From: a virus
Direction: 5' to 3' (one strand)
Virus record (IMG/VR): IMGVR_UViG_3300017951_000144
Location: 1-23,027 of that record
Length of the DNA stretch: 23,027 nt
The position numbers were made by a program, and so were the translations under genes. This document shows positions 2,398 through 17,531 of the stretch, in pieces (positions within the stretch are counted from its first letter, which is position 1; every line of letters starts with the position of its first letter). Under the pieces are notes generated by a model that had not been told where the DNA came from, searched no databases, and saw nothing but the letters and a program-made list of their open reading frames with translations.

Positions 2398-2563
2398 CAC
2401 TACCTCCCCAGATGGCAAACCCAATCATGTGAGCAACCAGCGATATGCCGCTGATCCATAGAGCCCACTTAAGCACATCTCCAGACAGCGTAATCAATAC
2501 AAGAGCGGTACCAGATATAGTCCATACGAGGGCATACCCCTCCTTAAACATTCTTTTTAGCAT
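2384..2563 (-). CDS. 59-aa two-helix membrane protein, possible holin or antiholin
   Basis: A short gene starting MLKRMFKEGYALVW and ending FAIWGGSDDEE. It has AAGGAG seven bases before the ATG at 2563, and that ATG overlaps the stop of the Thr-rich protein gene by one base (TGATG). Two hydrophobic stretches are visible (about residues 10-28 and 31-53), separated by a short SGD turn. The N-terminus is basic and the C-terminus acidic, which suggests both ends are cytoplasmic in a hairpin topology. It is the first of three consecutive small membrane proteins before the endolysin. A role in lysis timing is likely from context. No family was recognised. Confidence 0.72.
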   Translation of the reverse strand: MLKRMFKEGYALVWTISGTALVLITLSGDVLKWALWISGISLVAHMIGFAIWGGSDDEE

Positions 2564-3906
2564 CAGCGTCTCCTTCTGCCACCTCCCGCGGGGGCGGCGG
2601 CTGCTGCTGAGACTGTGGCCGTCACTGCCACAACAACACGTCGATCTTCGACGTTGATGCGGCTACCTGAAGGAACATAAGAGTCAAACGACCCACTAAA
2701 TACATTCACTTCTTCTTCAAACGCTTCTTTTACTTCAGTGGGGGCCTCGGATAGGGCTGCGCTGACGGCCTCTAGAGTCTCCTCGTCAAGGTTGTCGAAG
2801 TTCTCATTATTGACCAATGCGACAACTGCTTCGACGGTTACTTCTTCGGTGAGAACCGTTTCCACGGACTCAGCAAGTTCGATATCGGTTATACGTGAGA
2901 TTATAGCCGATTCAGGGGTCTTGGGGGGCTGGGTCGTGGTGGTTACTACAACTTCAGTCGTAGTTGTGGTGCTTGTTGACGAGGTGGTGGTCGTTGACGG
3001 CACCGTCGTGGAAGTGGAGGAAGTAGTAGTCGTCGTAGAGGTCGTCGAAACGATCGGCACGGTCGTAGATGTCGTCGTCGTTGGGGGGACTGTCGTAGTC
3101 GTGGTTGTTGACGTAGTCGATGGCGGCGGCGGCGGGAGCGTCGTCGTTGTCGTGGTTGTAGTGCTTGTTGAACTCGTCGTAGAAGTTGTCGAAGAGGTCG
3201 TAACGGGCACTGTTGTCGTTGGGGCGACGGTAGTGGTCGTAGGAGGCACGGTGGTGGTAGCGACGGTGGTCGTCGTCGTGGTTGGGGCAGTTGTCGTCAC
3301 CGGTACAGAGGTCGTCGTGGTAGTGGGCGGAACCGTCGTCGTAGATGACGATGTCGTCGTCGGTAACGATGTAGTTGTTGACGTGGTGGTTGTCGTTGTA
3401 GAAGTTGTAGTTGTTACCCATGTTGTCGTAGTGGTAGTAGGGGGCAGAGTGGTAGTTACTATAGTGGTTGTAGAGGTGGTCGTGCCCTCTAAACCGAACT
3501 CTGTTATCAATTCATAGGTGCCGTCACCCCAACTCGGCGTGTTGCCGAGACCCAACTGTGAACAGCAGTAGCCAGCCCGCAAGCGATAATCGCCAGCGTT
3601 CAGCGTCGTGTAAATCTTCGACGACACACACTGGTCAGTCGAGTTGTGATTGCCGTCGTCGTTTGAGGCGATCAGTTGACCAGTTGATTCAGGGTTGTCG
3701 TCGTACAGCCACAAGTGTGGGTCGGTCGTGACCTCGTTGCAGGACTCGTTGCTATTGCCGTAGATAACCACAAGGGTGTTGTCATTATCAACGGTGAAGT
3801 ACCAGTCAGATTCAGAGGTGACTGTGTAAGAAGAGGCGCTTACAGTGCCCCCATATATAAGAGCAAATAACCACAGCAATAAAGGTAGAAAGGTTATTTT
3901 TCGCAT
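2563..3906 (-). CDS. Secreted Thr-rich (mucin-like) protein with Arg-ended C-terminus
   Basis: A 447-aa protein in four parts. (1) A clear signal peptide, residues 1-25 (MRKITFLPLLLWLFALIYGG then TVSAS). (2) A beta-type domain, ~26-140, with DPHLWLYDD, AGDYRLRAGYCC and four cysteines (C56, C93, C114, C115); it resembles pre-peptidase C-terminal (PPC-like) surface domains. (3) A ~186-residue Thr/Ser/Pro/Val tract (141-326), probably extended and possibly glycosylated. (4) A C-terminal helical domain (327-430) with EAPTEVKEAFEEEVNVF and DSYVPSGS, then a hydrophobic stretch and GGGRRRR. I recall similar Thr tracts and C-termini in cell-surface proteins of Acidimicrobiia, suggesting a host-derived gene. 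It sits between a secreted lysozyme and the holins. Function is unknown: it could modify the cell surface, block superinfection or help lysis. Confidence 0.8.
   Translation of the reverse strand: MRKITFLPLLLWLFALIYGGTVSASSYTVTSESDWYFTVDNDNTLVVIYGNSNESCNEVTTDPHLWLYDDNPESTGQLIASNDDGNHNSTDQCVSSKIYTTLNAGDYRLRAGYCCSQLGLGNTPSWGDGTYELITEFGLEGTTTSTTTIVTTTLPPTTTTTTWVTTTTSTTTTTTSTTTSLPTTTSSSTTTVPPTTTTTSVPVTTTAPTTTTTTVATTTVPPTTTTVAPTTTVPVTTSSTTSTTSSTSTTTTTTTTLPPPPPSTTSTTTTTTVPPTTTTSTTVPIVSTTSTTTTTSSTSTTVPSTTTTSSTSTTTTTEVVVTTTTQPPKTPESAIISRITDIELAESVETVLTEEVTVEAVVALVNNENFDNLDEETLEAVSAALSEAPTEVKEAFEEEVNVFSGSFDSYVPSGSRINVEDRRVVVAVTATVSAAAAAPAGGGRRRR
2929..3486 (-). repeat. Thr-codon low-complexity tract
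   Basis: About 560 bases of degenerate trinucleotide repeat (ACN on the coding strand, GTN/GGT on the plus strand), encoding residues 141-326 of the Thr-rich protein. Recurrent units are VPPTTTT, TSSTTST and TTTVP. Codons vary between ACT, ACC, ACG and ACA, so it is not a perfect microsatellite, but any slippage in units of three would change protein length without breaking the frame. All shadow reading frames through it are low-complexity (Val-rich or Asp/Asn/His-rich) artefacts. Confidence 0.85.
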
Positions 3907-3923
3907 ACGGCCTCCGTATGCGA
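3901..3923 (-). promoter_or_regulatory. Perfect hairpin enclosing SD and start codon of the Thr-rich protein gene
   Basis: TCGCATACGG (3901-3910) and CCGTATGCGA (3914-3923) are perfect reverse complements separated by three bases. On the mRNA strand the hairpin contains GGAGG at its tip and the ATG (3906-3904) inside the 3' arm. A 10-bp stem would hide the initiation site. There is no T-run after the stem on either strand, so it is not an intrinsic terminator. Reading it as translational control is inference, but the symmetry and placement are seen directly. Confidence 0.7.
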
Positions 3924-3925
3924 TA

Positions 3926-4609
3926 CTACCTCAGTTCTTTAGGTGTAGAACAGTAATAATTACCGTAATTCCACGGTCCTACACTGCACTCTTCCCACAT
4001 CACGGCACACGCCTCTGCGTTGTAGGCAAAGTTGTCTGCGAAAGCGAACCGGTCGTAGTTCTCCAGCAACTTACCTTCGTCGAACCAGCCAGACAGGTTG
4101 TTCTGCTGACACAAGCCCCATGAATCGTCACGGGTACGAGTGTTGCCGTTATGGGCAGACGGGTCACAGAGCGATTCACGGCTAATAATCCTGAGCATCT
4201 TGGTAACCGTGTCGTCGCTAGCACCACGATCCCACAAGGCACGGGCAACTATGCTCGCTTCTTCGGGAGTACAGCCACTACCTTCTCCGTACACCTCTGG
4301 GATGGAGCCTGTCCACTCGGGTAGAGGGACGGTGGTAGTGGTGGTAGTGGACAAGTAGTGAGAAGTAGGCTCTTGCCCTCCCTCACCTTGGTACCCCGTG
4401 TACACGGGGTTGGGCACCTGTGGAGTCCACTCTTCACTGTCGTGCATGTCTGCACTCAAGTCAGATAGAACCAAGGGGTTACCGCTCCACACTACCGCTG
4501 TAGTTGGCGGGGGCACTTCTTGGGAAGCGTTATCTCGGTTCTCTTCTGCTAAGACCGAAACTGCCAGTGCCAGCCACGCGGACGCGGCCATACATACTAG
4601 ACGAATCAT
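3926..4609 (-). CDS. Secreted lysozyme/transglycosylase-like protein
   Basis: 227 aa with a signal peptide at residues 1-21 (LVCMAASAWLALAVSVLA). A Pro/Thr-rich linker (~31-100, including STTTTTTVPLP) leads to a lysozyme-fold domain (~113-227). That domain carries IISRESLCDP with probable catalytic E145, then DDSWGLCQQN (162-170), the usual SLT/goose-type motif pair. Seven cysteines lie between C113 and C220, suggesting disulfides and an extracellular location. AAGGAG lies eight bases before the ATG at 4609. The N-terminal Thr tract and the neighbouring Thr-rich protein suggest both are exported as a pair. It probably cuts peptidoglycan glycan strands from outside the membrane without needing the holin. 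Whether it helps lysis or modifies the wall of infected cells is open. Confidence 0.82.
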   Translation of the reverse strand: MIRLVCMAASAWLALAVSVLAEENRDNASQEVPPPTTAVVWSGNPLVLSDLSADMHDSEEWTPQVPNPVYTGYQGEGGQEPTSHYLSTTTTTTVPLPEWTGSIPEVYGEGSGCTPEEASIVARALWDRGASDDTVTKMLRIISRESLCDPSAHNGNTRTRDDSWGLCQQNNLSGWFDEGKLLENYDRFAFADNFAYNAEACAVMWEECSVGPWNYGNYYCSTPKELR

Positions 4610-4620
4610 TGGGGTATCTC

Positions 4621-4647
4621 CTTACTGTTGTCTCCTTCGACAGTAAG
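4621..4647 (-). promoter_or_regulatory. Leader hairpin overlapping the SD of the secreted lysozyme gene
   Basis: CTTACTGT (4621-4628) and ACAGTAAG (4640-4647) are perfect 8-bp reverse complements with an 11-nt loop. On the transcript the loop carries an AAGGAG copy (4637-4632). The functional AAGGAG (4623-4618), eight bases before the ATG, has its first three bases inside the 3' arm. Folding would partly cover the true site while exposing a decoy copy. It lies about 12 nt after the oxygenase stop and has no U-run. The regulatory role is inference. Confidence 0.5.
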
Positions 4648-4659
4648 TATACCACAATG

Positions 4660-5316
4660 TTACGGTTCTGTGTCAATAGGGGGCGGTGGGGCGGTAACGA
4701 AGGTACTGAGTATGGACTTGCTTGAAGATTCCGGCACCAAGCCACCGTGCAGGTGTATGAACGTGGCGGGGAATGTGACGATGCGGCCTTCTACCGCGTC
4801 ACAGGTGAAGTCAAAGTAATCGAAGTAGGTGCCCCCACCCTTTTTAACAGTGTTCAGGTACATCACGGACGCGAGTACCCTTTGGCTACCAGTACCCCGT
4901 AAGTACGGAGCACCGTCGATATGCGATCTATACATACCCTTTCCCTTAGGGTACATTTGGTACTGATAGCCAGTGTCAGCACGCGCCACCCACTCACTAG
5001 CAAGACTCTGGTAGGACCGGATATACTCAGACAGAGTTTCTTTGTAGATGCCATAGATGGCGTGCTCTGCGTCAAGCAGGAAACTACGCTCTTCGTCGGT
5101 CTGTGCTAGGGGGTTATCCCCAGAAATGTGGGCGTCGATAGACAACTTGGTCTCTGGGTGCTCCCCGGCTACAGTTCTCCCAGCGAACTGTACGTGAGGG
5201 TGCTTTTTAACAAACTTGATTATGCTCTTACATAATTTGCTGGGAATGGCGTCATCTTGTATACAGATTCCGGCCTGCTTCCCCAGAGGCCACTGAGGTT
5301 CACTCCTCTTCGGCAT
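4660..5316 (-). CDS. 2-oxoglutarate/Fe(II) oxygenase, prolyl-4-hydroxylase-like
   Basis: 218 aa from the ATG at 5316 (MPKRSEPQW). An upstream TTG would add 14 residues but lies within the 47-aa gene and is less likely. The double-stranded beta-helix core is visible. YRSHIDGAPY gives the H132-x-D134 iron ligands, FIHLHGGLVP gives the distal His (H188 or H190), and K200 in SSSKSIL is placed to bind 2-oxoglutarate. VASVMYLN-type beta strands and GGGTYF lie between them, as in phage P4H-like enzymes. The reaction would be hydroxylation of a protein or small substrate; the substrate is unknown. Candidates nearby are the Pro-containing Thr-rich protein and the structural adhesins. The N-terminus overlaps the 47-aa gene by 17 nt. 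Such oxygenases are common in aquatic myoviruses. Confidence 0.85.
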   Translation of the reverse strand: MPKRSEPQWPLGKQAGICIQDDAIPSKLCKSIIKFVKKHPHVQFAGRTVAGEHPETKLSIDAHISGDNPLAQTDEERSFLLDAEHAIYGIYKETLSEYIRSYQSLASEWVARADTGYQYQMYPKGKGMYRSHIDGAPYLRGTGSQRVLASVMYLNTVKKGGGTYFDYFDFTCDAVEGRIVTFPATFIHLHGGLVPESSSKSILSTFVTAPPPPIDTEP

Positions 5317-9283: not shown

Positions 9284-11218
9284 TTAGGGCCCAAACTCAG
9301 GAGGGGCTTCTTCGGAACCGTTAGCGGAATCTGATCCCGACCCGAATGGGGACTCGGGAGCGGGGGCAAGACCCGACAAGAAGTCGAAAGAAACAGTAGC
9401 AGAAACATACTGCTCTGGCAGACCCGTGTTGACATACTTAGTTCCGGGGCCTTGTCCGTCATACTGCTGCGACCAACATTTACGTACTTCGCTGGTTTGC
9501 GACTGGCCGTCCTTCTGTACCGTGACCTTACCGGTGAACTCATAAGCCCACCAGTAATACTCGTGAAGCACGTTTCTGGTGGCGACGTTACCCGGTCCCA
9601 CTTCAGACGAAGGCAGAACTCCATCGGATACGGTACTGTGGTCTTTGTAAATCTTTTCCCACTCATCAAGTGTGCTCGCGGTGGTGTTTTGCCCAGAAGA
9701 AATACTGGGGACATCGACAATCTTGAACAAGTGATCTAGTTCCAGACTAGAACTAGGAACAGGCCACTGACCAGTCCCCCCGTTAACTTTGTTGTAGGAG
9801 TTGACAGACGACTCAGTGGTAGAGCGGTCCTGTAGGTAATCCAGCAAAACGTTCGATGCTTGCTCGCTATGGGTGCTGCTAATAACGCTATCAAACCAGT
9901 CTTTAGCGTCAGGACTGTAGGCGTATACTGCAACGCTACCATCTACTTCTACGTAAGGATTCCCACCTTCAGCGAACGCCTTACCAATTAGACCGCCTTC
10001 GTAAGTGGTTCCCTGAGCCGCTTGCTGTGCTGGGTTAGCGTCGGTTACGGCCTGTAAGTCTTTGACAAAGAAGTGAGAGTACACCCTGTCGCGATCTATT
10101 AGGTCAGATAAAGCAATAACCCCATCGCCGCTTGTTGGGGCGGTGGCTGCGTTCGGGTTCTGGCGTTGGTACTGCCAATCGTTGAGGGAAAGCACCACCT
10201 TGTCGAAGTCGTGCTGTCCTAGACCACCAATCTCAGCAGGAACTTCATACTCCGTGCGTATGGTTTCCTCGTAAGCACCACGGAGTGATTCTGTCAAGAA
10301 AGTAGACTCACGAGCAAACCCTACATACTTCGCATCAACTTGTAGGTTGACAGCGACTTGAAGAGGAACCATAGTCCTACTGAACTTGGTAAACACAGTT
10401 CTAATTGAAGTTACGAACCCCTCAACGATATACAGAGAAGAAAACACAGTCCTAATAGGAAATGGCAACAAAAATGCAGCGTTACCTACATTCACACTAA
10501 GAAGTGTTTCAAGATTAGACAGAGCAGATGCGGTGTCCCCAGAAATGTCCGTGGTGATGACGTCCTCTTCTTGATCTTCTTCGTCTTGGCTGGACTCTGT
10601 ATTAGTAAGGTCCTCAATGGGGGTCTGAGCGTTGATCTGTTGAGTGTAAACGTCCCTAGCGAAACTCTGAGTAGCCCTAGATAACCCAACACCAATAACG
10701 GAATAGAGAATACCGATGTCGTGGAGAACGCCCACCTGAGAGGGGCTACTTGCCTCCCAAGCAAACTCTGTGTTTAAAACATCGCCAACTCTGGGATTGT
10801 TGAACTCCATGGTTCTATCAAAGAACAAATCAAAACTAAACTGGGTAGAACCCGGAATTGGTTGGGACATGTCTTCAGGAGACATCAGTAGAAAGTTACG
10901 AATTTGCTGGTTTTGACTAACTGCGTGCTGAATAGCCTCTGGGTTAAACTGGAACTGACACTTTACGGTTTTTGCGTTTGGGCTAACCATATCGTTGAGG
11001 CTTCTGATGTACCCCCTACTTAATCTGGTAGAGCCGTTAGGGTTATACCTACCGATTTCCCTAATCTCACGATTAGGGTAAATAAACTTTTTATTGATGT
11101 GGCCGCTGTAAGAAGAGTCGCCAGTGCTGTAGTACCCACTGCTGTTGGACTCAAAATTAGTGTTCTCGTTAGCAACCCCGATGTTGTAGTACTGGTCGTT
11201 ACGGTAACTGTCGGCCAT
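9284..11218 (-). CDS. Baseplate/tail-tube initiator protein with CIS-tube-like domain
   Basis: 644 aa. Residues ~85-150 contain CQFQFNPEAI, QPIPGSTQFSFDLFFDRTME and NNPRVGDVL. This FNP...LFFD...DV pattern is the one I know from the contractile-injection-system tube-associated domain next to LysM proteins. Residues ~200-225 are acidic (ESSQDEEDQEED), a probable flexible loop. The C-terminal half is long and Ser/Gly/Pro-rich at its end, and the segment around EYYWWAYEFTGKVTV looks like another beta domain. Its ATG overlaps the tape-measure stop by one base (TAATG), and the LysM gene follows. It probably caps or starts the tube at the baseplate. The length is large for such proteins, and the large extra part is unassigned. 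Confidence 0.7.
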   Translation of the reverse strand: MADSYRNDQYYNIGVANENTNFESNSSGYYSTGDSSYSGHINKKFIYPNREIREIGRYNPNGSTRLSRGYIRSLNDMVSPNAKTVKCQFQFNPEAIQHAVSQNQQIRNFLLMSPEDMSQPIPGSTQFSFDLFFDRTMEFNNPRVGDVLNTEFAWEASSPSQVGVLHDIGILYSVIGVGLSRATQSFARDVYTQQINAQTPIEDLTNTESSQDEEDQEEDVITTDISGDTASALSNLETLLSVNVGNAAFLLPFPIRTVFSSLYIVEGFVTSIRTVFTKFSRTMVPLQVAVNLQVDAKYVGFARESTFLTESLRGAYEETIRTEYEVPAEIGGLGQHDFDKVVLSLNDWQYQRQNPNAATAPTSGDGVIALSDLIDRDRVYSHFFVKDLQAVTDANPAQQAAQGTTYEGGLIGKAFAEGGNPYVEVDGSVAVYAYSPDAKDWFDSVISSTHSEQASNVLLDYLQDRSTTESSVNSYNKVNGGTGQWPVPSSSLELDHLFKIVDVPSISSGQNTTASTLDEWEKIYKDHSTVSDGVLPSSEVGPGNVATRNVLHEYYWWAYEFTGKVTVQKDGQSQTSEVRKCWSQQYDGQGPGTKYVNTGLPEQYVSATVSFDFLSGLAPAPESPFGSGSDSANGSEEAPPEFGP

Positions 11219-14052
11219 TACGCTGTCCTCATTTCATTGCGAGCAAGTTCGTCCCTAAGAATCTTTGTGACAGTTCTAGCAATCTCGTGCAGGTCTGCCC
11301 TCTCTGGCACACCGTTAAAGGAGATGTTGGGGGCGACGTTGATTGTAGGGGCCGAGTTGTATACGACAGAAGAACCTTTATTACCAGACTGGCGGCTTCC
11401 CCTAGAGGTCGCGCTAGAACCAATCGGGTCACCCCCGTTGTTCATCAGCCCAGCATTTTGTACCGCAGTCCTTGCTGATGCTAGGTCTGTGTTGTAGAGG
11501 TTCGATTCTTCCTTGTATTCGCCCCAGTCATACAGAGAGTTGTTTCTAACTTGATACAACTTAAACGCCGCATTCATGTTTGTCTGGGGGTCAAACAACT
11601 GCTCTTTACTAGAGAGACCAAATAGGTCTAGGCGGTACTGCTCTAAGTCCCCTAGCATGTTGATCTGCATGAGACCGAAGGAATCGTCGCCGGTAGCACG
11701 ATTGGGGTTGTACGCTCCTGTCTGCCAACCGCTTTCGCGTTGAGCAATGGCGACCACGTTCACCAAATCCTGACCCCGGAACCCTGCGTTGTAGGCTAGT
11801 CTGGCGACTTCTTCACCGGTGAGTTGGCGGTTACGGATAGAGAAACCTGACGAAGAAGAGGGGGACGAAGACCCGCTAACAAACGAAGTAGCACCAGTTC
11901 CACCCGCCATAAGTTGTGCGGTACCAGCAGCCGACAGCGCCTTGAGCATGTCCGATATGCTCTGGTTCTTGGTGTCAATAAACCCGATCCCACCCACATT
12001 GGTGTTCCCGTGGAAGGCGGACTCGGCATTACCGGGGAGGTCGGTGTCGTCGTATGCACCATCAGTTCCCCATACCGCTCCCTGTTTCTCGTACTCAAAG
12101 CGACTACGTGGGAGTTCCGCAGGCTGCACGTGATGCGGCTCGTTGTTAACATCTAGGAAGTGCTGTAATCCAAATTGCTGAGCGTGGTCGACCACCCAAC
12201 CGATATCGCCTACCAAGTCGGCAGCAAGACCAATTTCGTGCATAGAACGCCCGGGGGGCGCAGCGGCGAGACCAGAATGGTGTTCCCAGTAACTGCCGTC
12301 CCAGAATATGTTCTTGTCTCCATTTGCGTTGTACTCTGCATCTGTCCGCCTATACCGCTTGAGGAACATATCCCTCTGCTCGGACTCGTTACGAGTACCT
12401 CCACCAAAACCCACGGCAGGGTTGGCTCTAAACATATTCAAAAGCCTGTTCTGCATGTTCCTGTGGAGGGAAGCAAAACTAGGCTTAGACTTGAGTTGAT
12501 CGAGGGTGATGGTCCCACCTTGATAACCGTACGGAATAGTTGTGGTGCTGTCTTTACCGCTACCGCTGTTACCGGCACCGCTAGAAACTCCCCCAGTTCC
12601 TCCGCTTCCTCCGGACTCGCTGGAACCGATGGGGTCACCAAGACCCAACGCACCTAAAGCACTGCTGAACAAGCGCATTGGCGCAGTAGCGATACCTTTT
12701 AGGGTGCTAGTTACCGCACCGGCATAACCTTGTCGCATCTTGTATGCGTACTGAAGAGCGGTATCCATACTGGTCAGAAGTTCAATGACTTTCTGCTGGT
12801 ACTTCTCAGTGTTAGCCATGTCATCGATCTGTCGAGACATGAACTCTTCTTCTCTACGTACCTGTTGGCGCGAGGTTTCTTCTTGCTGTAGAGCGAAGTT
12901 GCCTTCAGCATCTCCCAACATCTTACGGTGCTCTTTGCTAGACGGGTCGTAGAAACCCTGTCCACCAGACTCCCCAAAGGCTACGTTCTGGCGAGCGTAC
13001 TCCAAGATGGCCGTCTGCTCAGCCTCGTCTGTAATACCGGCATCAGCCATACGGGCGCGTGCCACAGAACCTAGTTTTAGTGCACTAGATATCTGGCTTT
13101 TACTAGTCAGACCCATCCTTTGGATGATCTGTTGACGCATCTGAAGGGGGTCAGTCTCTGTTCCGCCTACGCCATAAGCACTAGTACCCAGCATGTAGAA
13201 CATGCGGTTTACAGTCTCGGGGCGCATCAACGCTTGCTGGCTATTAAGAATGTCCTGTGTCGAACGAGTGAAACCACTGGATACTCTAAGAGCCTCTACA
13301 GAACGTCCCATTGAAGCGATACTGGCTTGGTCCATATCCATTCCGTATGCCATACGGAATTGCAGAACGTCATCAATACCCCCCATACCCAGTTTGTATG
13401 GGATAAGAGGCTTACGGTATGCGTCGATAACGCTACCCCTGCCCGATTCCTGTCTGCCAGACGCTTGTTGAAGAAGAAGGTTAGTTCTAGATGCACCGGC
13501 GGCGTACTGCCTGCCCTGCTCAATGCGGGCGTCTAGTTTGTTGAACGCCCCATCGATAGCCCCAATAACTGCATCCATAATAGGCTTGGCGAGTTGAGCC
13601 GCCGCCATAGCGGCCATACCTTGAGGCGTGCCCCCAGCCGCCGCTCCAAGACCTCCCAGCCCAGCACCTCCACCACCGCCGCCTATACCCCCGGGTAGTG
13701 AGAGCAAAGCAGCGCCACGACTTTGCGAAGGGGCTAGCCCCCCGGACTTGACAATAGGGGAAGTGCCTGCGCTGTTAAGGCCGACGCCAATGTTAGCCAG
13801 ATTACCGCTACTTGAAGGTTTAGAAGAAGCGCCCCCGACACCAGCCATAGCGGACTGAGCCTTACCTGCCGAAGTAGACAGTTTGTCCATAGACTTCTTA
13901 AGAAGGTCTACTTCTGTACGGATTCCTTTAAGGGACTTACTAACGCCGTCAAGTGCCTTGGTGTCAACCTTTAGCCCGAGTTTGACATCGCCAATAGTGC
14001 TCTTGTCTACTAGGGCTCTTTCGGCTTTAGGTGGTTGTGGGGTGGGGGCCAT
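11218..14052 (-). CDS. Tape measure protein with M15 peptidase and lytic transglycosylase domains
   Basis: 944 aa. Residues ~1-70 have heptad-like helices. A glycine-rich and hydrophobic section (~120-170) and a long helical part (~170-460) are usual for tape measures, which set tail length inside the tube. Two enzyme domains follow. The first is an M15 peptidase (~523-645) with zinc ligands H605 and D612 in SMHEIGLAADL and H641 in NEPHHVQ, with E638 as general base. The second is an SLT-type transglycosylase (~740-865) with E773 in AIAQRESGWQ and SFGLMQIN at 791-798. Its C-terminus has coiled-coil-like helices. It begins 11 nt after the frameshifted chaperone ORF. After ejection it could cut both peptide and glycan bonds for DNA entry. 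Ser-rich linkers separate the domains. Confidence 0.9.
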   Translation of the reverse strand: MAPTPQPPKAERALVDKSTIGDVKLGLKVDTKALDGVSKSLKGIRTEVDLLKKSMDKLSTSAGKAQSAMAGVGGASSKPSSSGNLANIGVGLNSAGTSPIVKSGGLAPSQSRGAALLSLPGGIGGGGGGAGLGGLGAAAGGTPQGMAAMAAAQLAKPIMDAVIGAIDGAFNKLDARIEQGRQYAAGASRTNLLLQQASGRQESGRGSVIDAYRKPLIPYKLGMGGIDDVLQFRMAYGMDMDQASIASMGRSVEALRVSSGFTRSTQDILNSQQALMRPETVNRMFYMLGTSAYGVGGTETDPLQMRQQIIQRMGLTSKSQISSALKLGSVARARMADAGITDEAEQTAILEYARQNVAFGESGGQGFYDPSSKEHRKMLGDAEGNFALQQEETSRQQVRREEEFMSRQIDDMANTEKYQQKVIELLTSMDTALQYAYKMRQGYAGAVTSTLKGIATAPMRLFSSALGALGLGDPIGSSESGGSGGTGGVSSGAGNSGSGKDSTTTIPYGYQGGTITLDQLKSKPSFASLHRNMQNRLLNMFRANPAVGFGGGTRNESEQRDMFLKRYRRTDAEYNANGDKNIFWDGSYWEHHSGLAAAPPGRSMHEIGLAADLVGDIGWVVDHAQQFGLQHFLDVNNEPHHVQPAELPRSRFEYEKQGAVWGTDGAYDDTDLPGNAESAFHGNTNVGGIGFIDTKNQSISDMLKALSAAGTAQLMAGGTGATSFVSGSSSPSSSSGFSIRNRQLTGEEVARLAYNAGFRGQDLVNVVAIAQRESGWQTGAYNPNRATGDDSFGLMQINMLGDLEQYRLDLFGLSSKEQLFDPQTNMNAAFKLYQVRNNSLYDWGEYKEESNLYNTDLASARTAVQNAGLMNNGGDPIGSSATSRGSRQSGNKGSSVVYNSAPTINVAPNISFNGVPERADLHEIARTVTKILRDELARNEMRTA

Positions 14053-14063
14053 AGGCGTCTCCG

Positions 14064-14207
14064 TTAGTCCTTACGCCATCTAGCCATCTTAAACCAGTAT
14101 GTGCGTTGACGAACTGACAAGTTCTGTATGCTGTGTAAGTCGAACCCTTTATAGACGTAGGCTATGGCTTCGTATTCCCAATATAGGTTTGCGGTGTTAA
14201 CTGAATA
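14064..14207 (-). CDS. Frameshift extension of the tail assembly chaperone (47 codons)
   Basis: Read in the +1 frame relative to the chaperone, these bases encode 47 residues with YWEYEAIAYVYKGFDLHSIQ and RQRTYWFKMARW, ending at TAA. A TAG in this frame at 14231-14229 limits how far back it extends, and the first ATG comes only near its end. It therefore has no usable start of its own. It fills the gap between the chaperone stop and the tape measure. The helical, aromatic and basic composition looks like the C-terminal T part of phage gpG-gpGT chaperones. It is best explained as the tail of a ~310-aa fusion protein. The mechanism is inferred. Confidence 0.72.
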   Translation of the reverse strand, partial: YSVNTANLYWEYEAIAYVYKGFDLHSIQNLSVRQRTYWFKMARWRKD

Positions 14208-14228
14208 AAAGGGAGACCCAGTCGAGCG
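14197..14228 (-). promoter_or_regulatory. Candidate +1 frameshift zone at the end of the chaperone gene
   Basis: The shift must occur between the +1-frame TAG (14231-14229) and the chaperone TAA (14199-14197). Within this zone the chaperone frame reads TCC-CTT-TTA. A Leu tRNA on CTT (14211-14209) can re-pair with TTT one base on, as in bacterial prfB (CUU-UGA), with the Leu TTA codon next. No AGGGGG-like stimulator was seen upstream. A -2 shift would reach the same frame and cannot be ruled out. Confidence 0.55.
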
Positions 14229-14997
14229 CTAACGGAGACTCTTCTCCGCAAGCCGCACAATGGGTGTCCACCTCCCCCAGTTTAGGGCCTACTTCAACGT
14301 CAAGTAGGGCATTTACGAGTTTACGCCTATCAGAAATGTTTAGGTTGCGTGCCCACGCCACGACATCCTCTGGGGCTTTGCCTTCTGGCCACACTACGCA
14401 CTTAGACAACATAAGCGTGTTCAACTCTGCATCCGAGTCGGACTTCTTCTGAATCTGGGAAACGTCTCCGCCAGAGGGAAGACGCAAAGTGAGTTCTCCC
14501 TTAGAGGTTTTAACTTTTAGCCCCTTCTGGAGGTCGAAGTCAGCCTCTTTAATTGGGAAATCGTCTACCAAATCAATGTACAGGTCATTAGGGGTTTCGC
14601 ATTTCTGACATACGTAGGTCAGTGCCCGTTCGCGCCCGTACGTTGCCCTAATGATTCCCAAATACAGGACGTCACGATCCGCAAAAATCAAGGAATCGAT
14701 AACTGCGGGGTGCTCCGAGACGGATACGTCTCCTACTTTGACGACTGCCAACTTTAGAATCTCGGTCATGTAATCAGAGTAAAGAAGGTCTTTCTTCTTG
14801 GAAATTACAGCCAAACGCTCCTCATCTGCGCCGGTTAGTTCCCGAACCTCTGCGGTGGTCAACCACTTTTCTTCTTCGGAGGATTTGTGGTAAACACCAC
14901 GAAGAAGTTTAACAACGTTACTACCAGAGTCCGGCATAGCCGGAATCGGGTCATTTATAGCGTCGTTGATAGTAGAGGCGTCTTTTTCTTCACTCAC
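14197..14997 (-). CDS. Tail assembly chaperone, short form, with zinc-ribbon cysteines
   Basis: 266 aa starting with GTG at 14997, with AGGAG six bases upstream. It lies exactly where tail assembly chaperones are found, between tail tube and tape measure. The sequence resembles T4 gp26/gp51-type baseplate-assembly proteins (PF12322-like), e.g. LYLGIIRATYG and WARNLNISDRRKLVNALL. Two CxxC pairs (C130/C133 and C247/C250) could form a zinc ribbon. They are far apart in sequence and the second is just before the frameshift zone. The chaperone would bind the tape measure during tail assembly and be absent from virions. Chaperone identity rests on position, the split-gene structure and weak motif memory. 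Confidence 0.75.
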   Translation of the reverse strand: MSEEKDASTINDAINDPIPAMPDSGSNVVKLLRGVYHKSSEEEKWLTTAEVRELTGADEERLAVISKKKDLLYSDYMTEILKLAVVKVGDVSVSEHPAVIDSLIFADRDVLYLGIIRATYGRERALTYVCQKCETPNDLYIDLVDDFPIKEADFDLQKGLKVKTSKGELTLRLPSGGDVSQIQKKSDSDAELNTLMLSKCVVWPEGKAPEDVVAWARNLNISDRRKLVNALLDVEVGPKLGEVDTHCAACGEESPLALDWVSLLFS

Positions 14998-15023: not shown

Positions 15024-15040
15024 GGCTGATTGTATCAGCC
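15024..15040 (-). promoter_or_regulatory. Short hairpin at the tail tube stop codon
   Basis: GGCTGAT (15024-15030) and ATCAGCC (15034-15040) are perfect reverse complements with a 3-nt loop. The TGA stop of the tail tube gene lies inside the 5' arm on the transcript. The following bases TCATAACAACAAAC have no U-run, so a classical terminator is unlikely. It may protect the 3' end of the abundant sheath-tube message or lower read-through into the chaperone gene. Only the symmetry is directly seen. Confidence 0.4.
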
Positions 15041-15670
15041 AAAGTCGTGGACGTCTGCGCCTTCGTCGAGGTCTCCAGCCCACAAGATTTCAAAACCTTC
15101 GTGGTTAACCACCAACTGCTGGATGAGCAGTGACGAATCGCCAGCGTTAAGATCGCCCAAGGCAAACGATGCTGGCCAGCAGTTGTACAAACGGTACCCC
15201 ATCTTTGGCGTAAGAGCATTACCGTCTGCTGAGGCTACGGGAGACTCGCCGTTAGCCGGGTTGTCGTCATACGTGGCCGCAGAAATGGGGTGGTCGAAAA
15301 TCGAAACGGAGATATTGCAACGATAGTCGTTGTTGTCCGTACCGGCAGTAGAACCCTCTTCAAATCCTCCCTGTCCCCAAGTGTGGAGGAACGTCTGCCA
15401 CTTGTACAGACTGTCTTGGTTAGGGAATACTCCACGAGTAAAGGTCACAGGGCCGTAGTCGGACTGACCAATCATCTTGTGTGGATGCGTGTTCATGCCG
15501 CCTTCGCGGTATGCAATCATCTCATTTTGTACTGAAATACCGGAAACAACGGAGAACCCAACTTCAAAGTCTTTGCCGTTGTCGGTGAGTGTGGAGAGCC
15601 GCCCCGATGGGTGAATCTTTACTCGGAACTTAAAGTTCCTTAGCGGATCAGTTACTGCTGAACGTGCCAT
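15035..15670 (-). CDS. Tail tube protein, gp19-like
   Basis: 211 aa, a normal length for T4 gp19-type tube proteins (PF06841). The N-terminus has DPLRNFKFRVKI, followed by EVGFSVVSGISVQNEMIAYREGG and GPVTFTRGVFPNQDSLYKW. The GFS-VSG...YREGG...VT--RG order is the family signature. The C-terminal part contains NCWPASFALGDLNAGDSSLLIQ and NHEGFEI, also typical. It polymerises into the inner tube through which DNA passes. AAGGAG lies eight bases upstream of the ATG. It follows the sheath gene by 16 nt, and the two are normally made in similar large amounts. A hairpin overlaps its stop codon. Confidence 0.92.
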   Translation of the reverse strand: MARSAVTDPLRNFKFRVKIHPSGRLSTLTDNGKDFEVGFSVVSGISVQNEMIAYREGGMNTHPHKMIGQSDYGPVTFTRGVFPNQDSLYKWQTFLHTWGQGGFEEGSTAGTDNNDYRCNISVSIFDHPISAATYDDNPANGESPVASADGNALTPKMGYRLYNCWPASFALGDLNAGDSSLLIQQLVVNHEGFEILWAGDLDEGADVHDFG

Positions 15671-15686
15671 TTACATATCTCCTTGA

Positions 15687-17531
15687 TTAGAGGCTCTCAA
15701 CGGCGTTGCTACCGCCGCTCCATTGAGAAAGGTTAATAACGATGAACTCTGCCGGGTACTGGAGCGCAACGCCGACTTCGACGTTTACAATCCCCTGATC
15801 GATGCTGATGGGCGTGTTGTTGGTCTCGTCACACACAACGTAGAAGGACTGGGCGGCGTTTGCGCCCTTGAGTCCGCCTTCGTTGTAGAACGAACTGAGG
15901 TTCGAGGAGACTGCTCCACGAATACGTGCCCACAGACGCTGATCATTGGGTTCAAACACGGCAAACTTGGTCAAGTTGTCGAGAGTGTATCGCAGGTAGT
16001 TCAGCGTACGGCGGATAGGAATGTAGCGGTCGGCACCAATCTTTGTAAGAGTACGGGCTCCGTAAACCACGATGCCGCCTCCGGGCACTGCCTTAAAGCA
16101 GTTCGTCTGAGGGGTGCGTGCGCCACTGTAGAAATCACCGATATTAGCGTCAGTGAGGTTAACCGAGAGGCCGAGGGCTCCACGGATATCTGCGGCGTAG
16201 CCAGCGGGAGCCTTTGCCACGTTCTGCTCAACGTCAGTGCGGACATAGAGACCAGCGACAGCACCACCGGGGTAGGTATCGCGGATAGCGCCCGGACCCG
16301 ATTTGGCCGGATCAACCATGAGCAACGACGGGGTGTAATGCGCACCGTAGTTACCGTTAGACGCAACTGTTGAGCGGTTTGCGACGGTCTCCAAATCGGA
16401 AACTGTTGCGACGCCCTTGTCTGGGTCGACAATGACAAACGCGGTGCCGCGCTCCTGAGCCTTGTTGAGGAACGCAGTTGTGGTGTTGGTGTCGTTGCCG
16501 ACGGAGTCTCCATTGGCGTTTACGTAAGGAACAGCGTTCATGACCACAACGCCCTCAACACCATCAATGGTGTTTAGAGCATCAGTGTATTCAGTGCTGG
16601 TGGGTTCTCCACCATCATCTCCGCCATCGAAAGGAACTGATGAGGTGTAGTAAGTGGAGGAGGCGCTAGCAGCAACAGCATCTGGGTTAACGGAATCAAC
16701 CTTGATGTAATCGCTGTAGGTGTTAACGATGGTGGCAACGTAACGGTTGTCTGTGGACTCGACTGCAACTTCGTTCCAACGCTCTACTTCGACGCCGTCC
16801 AGACGGACAACGAGGTTGAAAGAACCGAAGCGTTCACTGCTGGACGGTACCGTACCTGCTTCAATTTGCAAAGTTAGGTCGTTGCCCCACGCTCCAGCAC
16901 TGATTGCCTCTGCGTCAAACAAAGACTTCCAACGAGCAGCAGAAGTGTTACTGACGTCGAGAGTACCGGCATCGGCAGTCTCTGAGACGTCGGAGGCTCC
17001 GGAAGCAGCGAAGGTGAACGTGGTGTCATCGACTACAGAAACAACGGTCTGATCACCGTCGATAGCAGCGACCGTGCCTGCTGAAGCAATAGTCACGACG
17101 TCACCAACAATGAGGTTGTGAGAAGCAGTGGTGGTGATGGTCGCTACCTCAGAAGTAATGGCGTAAGTAGCCAACGTGTACGTCGAAGAGTTCTGACCGT
17201 ATGGGTAGAACGGAACTCCATTACCTGAGAAGTTGTTAATCGCAGAGACATCAGCAGCAGCGGGGTTGGTGGGGCCGACAACGCGAGCAACCCAGCAGCC
17301 TCGGCCACCGTTTGCGAAGAAGTGATACACGGCGTAACCGAGATCATATGCGTCGGTTAGGTTGCCATACAGGCGACGATATTCGCCCCAGTTAGCAACG
17401 TACGTAGCATCCGTAGGTCCGCGGCCAGCGCGGCCTGCGAAGAAGGCTGTAGGACCTGAAGGGACGTTGTTCGACCGCGAGTTAAGACGAGACTCGTTGA
17501 TGTAAACGCCGGGAGTTGTGTAGTTAGGCAT
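15687..17531 (-). CDS. Tail sheath protein with an inserted Ig-like beta domain
   Basis: 614 aa. The start MPNYTTPGVYINE and GPTAFFAGRAGRGP are typical of contractile sheath proteins (PF04984 family). The C-terminal domain (~470-612) carries GGIVVYGARTL, YIPIRRTLNYL, FEPNDQRLWARIR and NVEVGVALQYPAEFI. It wraps the tube and contracts to drive it into the host. Residues ~120-196 form a separate beta domain (ITSEVATITTTASHNLIVGD ... DDTTFTFAAS), a module seen in many virion proteins. It interrupts the sheath fold and probably projects outward. GGAGG precedes the ATG, and the gene begins three bases after the preceding stop. Confidence 0.95.
   Translation of the reverse strand: MPNYTTPGVYINESRLNSRSNNVPSGPTAFFAGRAGRGPTDATYVANWGEYRRLYGNLTDAYDLGYAVYHFFANGGRGCWVARVVGPTNPAAADVSAINNFSGNGVPFYPYGQNSSTYTLATYAITSEVATITTTASHNLIVGDVVTIASAGTVAAIDGDQTVVSVVDDTTFTFAASGASDVSETADAGTLDVSNTSAARWKSLFDAEAISAGAWGNDLTLQIEAGTVPSSSERFGSFNLVVRLDGVEVERWNEVAVESTDNRYVATIVNTYSDYIKVDSVNPDAVAASASSTYYTSSVPFDGGDDGGEPTSTEYTDALNTIDGVEGVVVMNAVPYVNANGDSVGNDTNTTTAFLNKAQERGTAFVIVDPDKGVATVSDLETVANRSTVASNGNYGAHYTPSLLMVDPAKSGPGAIRDTYPGGAVAGLYVRTDVEQNVAKAPAGYAADIRGALGLSVNLTDANIGDFYSGARTPQTNCFKAVPGGGIVVYGARTLTKIGADRYIPIRRTLNYLRYTLDNLTKFAVFEPNDQRLWARIRGAVSSNLSSFYNEGGLKGANAAQSFYVVCDETNNTPISIDQGIVNVEVGVALQYPAEFIVINLSQWSGGSNAVESL

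Follow-up and report, generated by a model that had tools for sequence, protein, structure and literature searches.

Phage tail chaperones that are made in a short and a long form by ribosomal frameshifting are a known kind of system. The shifts are -1, -2 and +1 in different phages; most of those known are -1, as a sequence-only reading of the present locus had also stated, and T4 is named as the exception (PMC5009743). In phage lambda, the forms gpG and gpGT arise by a -1 shift that fixes their ratio (PMC5009743). In phage P2, the chaperone gene lies between the tail tube and tape measure genes, and a small helical domain (E', PF06528, the frameshift half of gpE+E') is appended to gpE, a small PF10109 protein, by a -1 shift at a T-run close to the 3' end of the gene. 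Phage T4 also has a short and a long form, gp26 with 208 aa and gp51 with 249 aa. Both belong to PF12322 and both are listed as hub assembly chaperones (PMC3004832), but they are encoded by two genes and no frameshift is involved. T4-like phages are described as carrying a short and a long copy of the chaperone gene in place of a frameshift (Vladimirov et al. 2022, as described in PMC10885494).

Two further systems are relevant. The prfB gene (RF2) is read with a +1 shift in which CUU is the P-site codon and the tRNA slips to UUU; UUU itself is among the next most slippery codons (PMC10885494; PMC3711429). In prfB, an in-frame UGA occupies the A site and a Shine-Dalgarno sequence lies upstream (PMC3711429). 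Extracellular contractile injection systems carry a small DUF6760 domain directly behind a chaperone of the PF12322 type. In the Streptomyces injection systems (L116-L119), this domain is encoded by a separate gene with a GTG start, which overlaps the chaperone gene in a GTGA.

The locus described here is part of a 23-kb virus record (the window, i.e. the whole stretch of 23,027 nucleotides that was analysed) whose minus strand encodes a contractile-tail module (Table 1). The gene order is tail tube, chaperone, extension and tape measure, which is the position of a tail assembly chaperone and bears out the earlier remark that the extension sits where gpG-gpGT frameshifts occur. The SLT lysozyme domain of the tape measure protein is located near its C-terminus, and a stretch in the middle of the protein is weakly similar to a VanY-like peptidase (E=0.019). 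Elsewhere in the window, long runs of threonine dominate a 447-aa ORF (2563-3906, minus strand), opposite which the other strand is open as well (2738-3517), probably as an effect of composition.

Table 1. Features of the tail module and of the proposed frameshift site in the window
Feature	Position	Strand	Details
Tail sheath	15687..17531	-	phrog_23 E=4e-40
Tail tube protein, gp19-like	15035..15670	-	PF06841 E=6.3e-24
Chaperone, short form (TAC-N)	14197..14997	-	266 aa, PF12322 and phrog_150
+1-frame extension	14064..14207	-	47 aa (YSVNTANLYWEYEAIAYVYKGFDLHSIQNLSVRQRTYWFKMARWRKD) and stop; relatives and profile matches
Overlap zone obligatory for the frame change	14197..14228	-	TAG 14231-14229, TAA 14199-14197
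Slip codon CTT (P site), frame 0 Leu263, proposed re-pairing on TTT	14209..14211	-	CTT in 16/16 group clusters
0-frame A-site codon TTA	14206..14208	-	NTA (TTA/CTA/ATA) in 16/16 relatives
Tape measure protein with SLT lysozyme domain	11218..14052	-	PF18896 E=2.5e-12, PF01464 E=9.3e-8, position

The chaperone gene begins with GTG and ends with TAA. Its product is a member of the T4 gp26/gp51 family: it matches PF12322 (T4_baseplate) with E=1.6e-9 and 38.2 bits, against a Pfam gathering cut-off of 24.5, and the baseplate hub family phrog_150 with E=8.5e-12. PF10109, the family of P2 gpE, gave a sub-threshold match only (E=0.0059). The AlphaFold model is confident, with a pLDDT of 93.7, and its best viral fold matches in BFVD are T4-like baseplate hub assembly proteins; a fold search against the PDB returned nothing significant (best E 0.74). 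The zinc-ribbon character noticed before corresponds to two CxxC pairs that are zinc-ribbon-like, and the assignment can now be sharpened to PF12322. Cys 130, 133 and 250 are unchanged across 59 relatives.

The end of the chaperone gene is crossed by an ORF in the +1 frame (14228-14064, minus strand). It is open from just after a TAG to a TAA (14066-14064), which is followed 11 nt later by the ATG of the tape measure gene, and comprises 54 codons from stop to stop, 47 of them past the proposed slip. It shares 32 nt with the 3' end of the chaperone gene, which reads TCC-CTT-TTA-TTC-AGT-TAA. No ATG, GTG or TTG is present upstream of the conserved part of this ORF in the window; the first TTG and the sole ATG both lie in its second half. 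The start-less ORF of 47 codons, the two stops that bound it and the TCC-CTT-TTA in the overlap had all been pointed out in the sequence-only reading, and on checking they were correct in every coordinate. The -1 frame of the window ends at 14162 without an extension domain, so the locus does not follow the -1 arrangement of P2 and lambda.

We propose that +1 slippage on CUU yields a minor protein of ~310 aa (TAC-NC) beside the 266-aa TAC-N, and we put the probability of this reading at roughly 0.9. Most ribosomes would stop at the TAA of the chaperone gene and release the short form. A minority would stall when CUU occupies the P site and the rare UUA the A site; the leucine tRNA would then shift from CUU to UUU, and decoding would resume at UAU in the +1 frame. 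The long form would then consist of the chaperone with a small helical domain at its C-terminus. If lambda gpG/gpGT and P2 gpE/gpE+E' are taken as a guide, the short form may coat the tape measure, while the rare long form may recruit tail tube subunits. We infer the frameshifting at the end of the chaperone gene from the comparison of related sequences described below; that slippage occurs, its efficiency and the functional roles of both forms are likewise inferred.

This comparison covered 176 related loci from viral contigs, phage records and genomes, which fell into 92 clusters at 90% identity. The survey was blind to frame, with a profile (HMM) of the extension run against each of the three reading frames in the region of the chaperone stop. 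The extension was found in the +1 frame, overlapping the chaperone stop, in 89 of 92 clusters (the clusters share ancestry, and such counts do not represent independent events). It was found in the -1 frame behind T-runs in two clusters, both from Burkholderiales (L111 and L112), and was not found in one (L106), where the downstream sequence looks degenerate. The chaperones of the 89 clusters are about 25–74% identical to that of the window. In the nearest relatives (chaperone 73% identical), the extension is kept in the same frame, and in the nearest one it is 79% identical at the protein level. The Streptomyces phages BRock, LuckySocke, Alone3, pSt2308 and GiJojo, with 32–35% identity, also have it in the +1 frame. 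The ORF is thus not a product of chance, since the same +1 ORF and protein motif recur in 89/92 clusters of relatives and are so well preserved in the nearest one.

Surveys of PF12322 by phylum produced few matches. Two distant records, the SP15-like Listeria phage LIS04 and a jumbo phage, have a +1 ORF that spans the end of the chaperone gene, a TTT nearby and weak profile scores (E of 0.006 and 0.11, respectively). These long +1 ORFs are located at about 1750-2080 in LIS04 (L232) and about 1240-1480 in the jumbo phage record (L231); in LIS04, the annotation leaves a gap at the chaperone end, before the tape measure. Streptomyces chromosomal loci were also considered as injection systems, and the one examined (L098) proved to be a prophage: upstream of the locus lie genes for terminase, portal and major head.

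The proposed slip codon is found at a fixed short distance from the chaperone stop. Counting sense codons back from the stop, CTT is the fourth in 16 clusters, including the window (16/16 in that group); leucine has six codons, and CTT accounts for 21.8% of those used elsewhere in these genes. A TTT takes its place as the second, third or fourth in the other clusters (73/73) and is followed by C in 72. In the clusters with >60% GC, TTT is present at the site in 42/42, as compared with 12/268 (4.5%) of the other phenylalanine codons. The influenza PA-X site likewise depends on slippage at UUU_C. An out-of-frame extension over the 3' end together with a conserved slippery site, a feature of TAC-N/TAC-NC pairs, is found in 89/92 clusters, in each case as +1 with CTT or TTT.

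Within the CTT group, upstream and neighbouring wobble bases vary and CTT never does. It is followed by T, C or A and then invariably by TA, which gives Leu or Ile in frame 0 and Tyr in the +1 frame. As TA is fixed in NTA while the wobble bases upstream vary, the constraint from both frames (dual coding) starts just after CTT. The sequence-only reading had singled out the extension and the CTT-TTA for comparison among relatives: the extension is retained in the same +1 frame without a start codon, and CTT is kept throughout, but TTA alternates with CTA and ATA. In the window, TTA is the rarest leucine codon of the genes (8.4% of Leu codons). CTT is the commonest leucine codon of this phage, so the slip site alone would be weak evidence there. 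We could find neither a downstream stimulatory RNA structure (z 0.23; consensus -1.2 kcal/mol) nor a clear or conserved Shine-Dalgarno-like stimulator. The suggested likeness to prfB therefore holds for the P-site codon, whereas the A site is occupied by a sense codon (TTA, CTA or ATA) and not by UGA, and the conserved Shine-Dalgarno sequence is missing.

Could the extension instead be a separate small protein, translated by coupling or from a near-cognate start after the chaperone stop, with no fusion made? The GTGA-overlapping DUF6760 gene behind the chaperone of the Streptomyces injection systems is such a case, an overlapping ATG is present in Burkholderiales L111 too, and a start or near-cognate codon occurs within nine codons in 43/89 clusters. 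However, true ATG, GTG or TTG codons are found near the site in only 12/89 clusters and are absent from the first nine +1 codons past it in the other 77, and in the window none precedes the conserved domain. Coupling would also leave unexplained why the stop is preceded, at a short and constant interval, by an invariant CTT or TTT_C, and why the +1 frame is open upstream of the stop. We therefore regard a separate protein as improbable.

Slightly less probable still is an entry into the +1 frame by -2 slippage or by transcriptional slippage. A -2 shift, known from phage Mu (PMC5009743), leads to the same frame, and the UUA of the window could re-pair on UUU. At the CTT-CTA, CTT-ATA, TTT-CGN and TTT-CAG sites of the relatives, however, -2 re-pairing is poor, so that of the two shifts originally put forward (+1 or -2), +1 fits better. 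As to the polymerase, the T-run of most loci, with two to four bases, is too short for it to slip. A start-less, out-of-frame ORF is also what a sequencing indel in a single in-frame gene, or a decayed remnant, would leave behind, but this idea is refuted by the 89 clusters from many samples and isolates that keep both the frame and the open extension. A programmed +1 frameshift that fuses the extension to the chaperone, as first suggested for this locus, is thus the reading favoured by the sequence comparison: the extension, its frame and the CTT are kept, and starts are lacking.

The 47-aa extension of the window alone has no meaningful Pfam, PHROG or NCBIfam match, and it reaches the gathering score of neither PF06528 (no match) nor DUF6760 (PF20546). 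Among 60 aligned relatives, five match Phage_P2_GpE (PF06528; best E=1.9e-4) and eight match DUF6760 (best E=0.0027). In profile-profile comparison, the extension profile aligned with that of P2 E' with a probability of 93.7 and with that of DUF6760 with 87.9; none of 200 column shuffles reached either score. These profile comparisons link the extension to the P2 E' domain and to the DUF6760 domain of injection systems; the window copy is a remote relative of E' and not a Pfam member. The locus would share with P2 a small helical domain of related sequence, added by a putative frameshift near the 3' end of the chaperone gene. The related domain of the two Burkholderiales clusters (L111, about 4690-4890; L112, about 4600-4806) is in the -1 frame behind a P2-like T-run, across which RFFFAE is read, much as RFFVAE in P2. 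T4 gp51 continues for about 48 residues past the PF12322 core, and this tail resembles the extension weakly (probability 19.5, P=0.0012, above all 150 shuffles). In the T4 record (L113), gp51 and gp26 are encoded at 4480-5229 and 3803-4429, respectively, and the C-terminal tail of gp51 reads YSLNSISKMIPAER.

These observations raise the possibility, to which we give even odds, that four interchangeable wirings supply one ancestral C-terminal domain to T4-type chaperones: +1 slippage at CUU or UUU_C, in the window phage, in phages and prophages of Streptomyces and possibly in jumbo phages and those of the SP15-like type; -1 slippage at T-runs; a separate gene that overlaps, as in injection systems; and gene duplication plus fusion, as in T4. 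The +1 wiring may be the commonest form in phages of Gram-positive hosts. In the literature searched, with partial coverage, we found no description of +1 shifts at CUU or UUU_C with sense A-site codons in T4-type chaperones, none of frameshifting in injection systems, and no paper that names DUF6760.

The arrangement is mostly unannotated across about ninety related phage and prophage groups. In Streptomyces phage records, the extension is annotated from an internal codon or omitted, and the conserved domain is partly or wholly lost; cases are L006 2695-2877 (BRock gp135), L007 2827-2982 and L009. The present reading would correct the records of isolates, BRock and GiJojo among them, whose annotation has the extension truncated, separate or missing. 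The loci of the survey also form a comparative set on how UUU_C and CUU sites with sense A-site codons drive bacterial +1 slippage. Over a wide range of phages and prophages, chaperones of this T4-type family appear to be read with a +1 shift at an invariant codon and without an obvious RNA structure.
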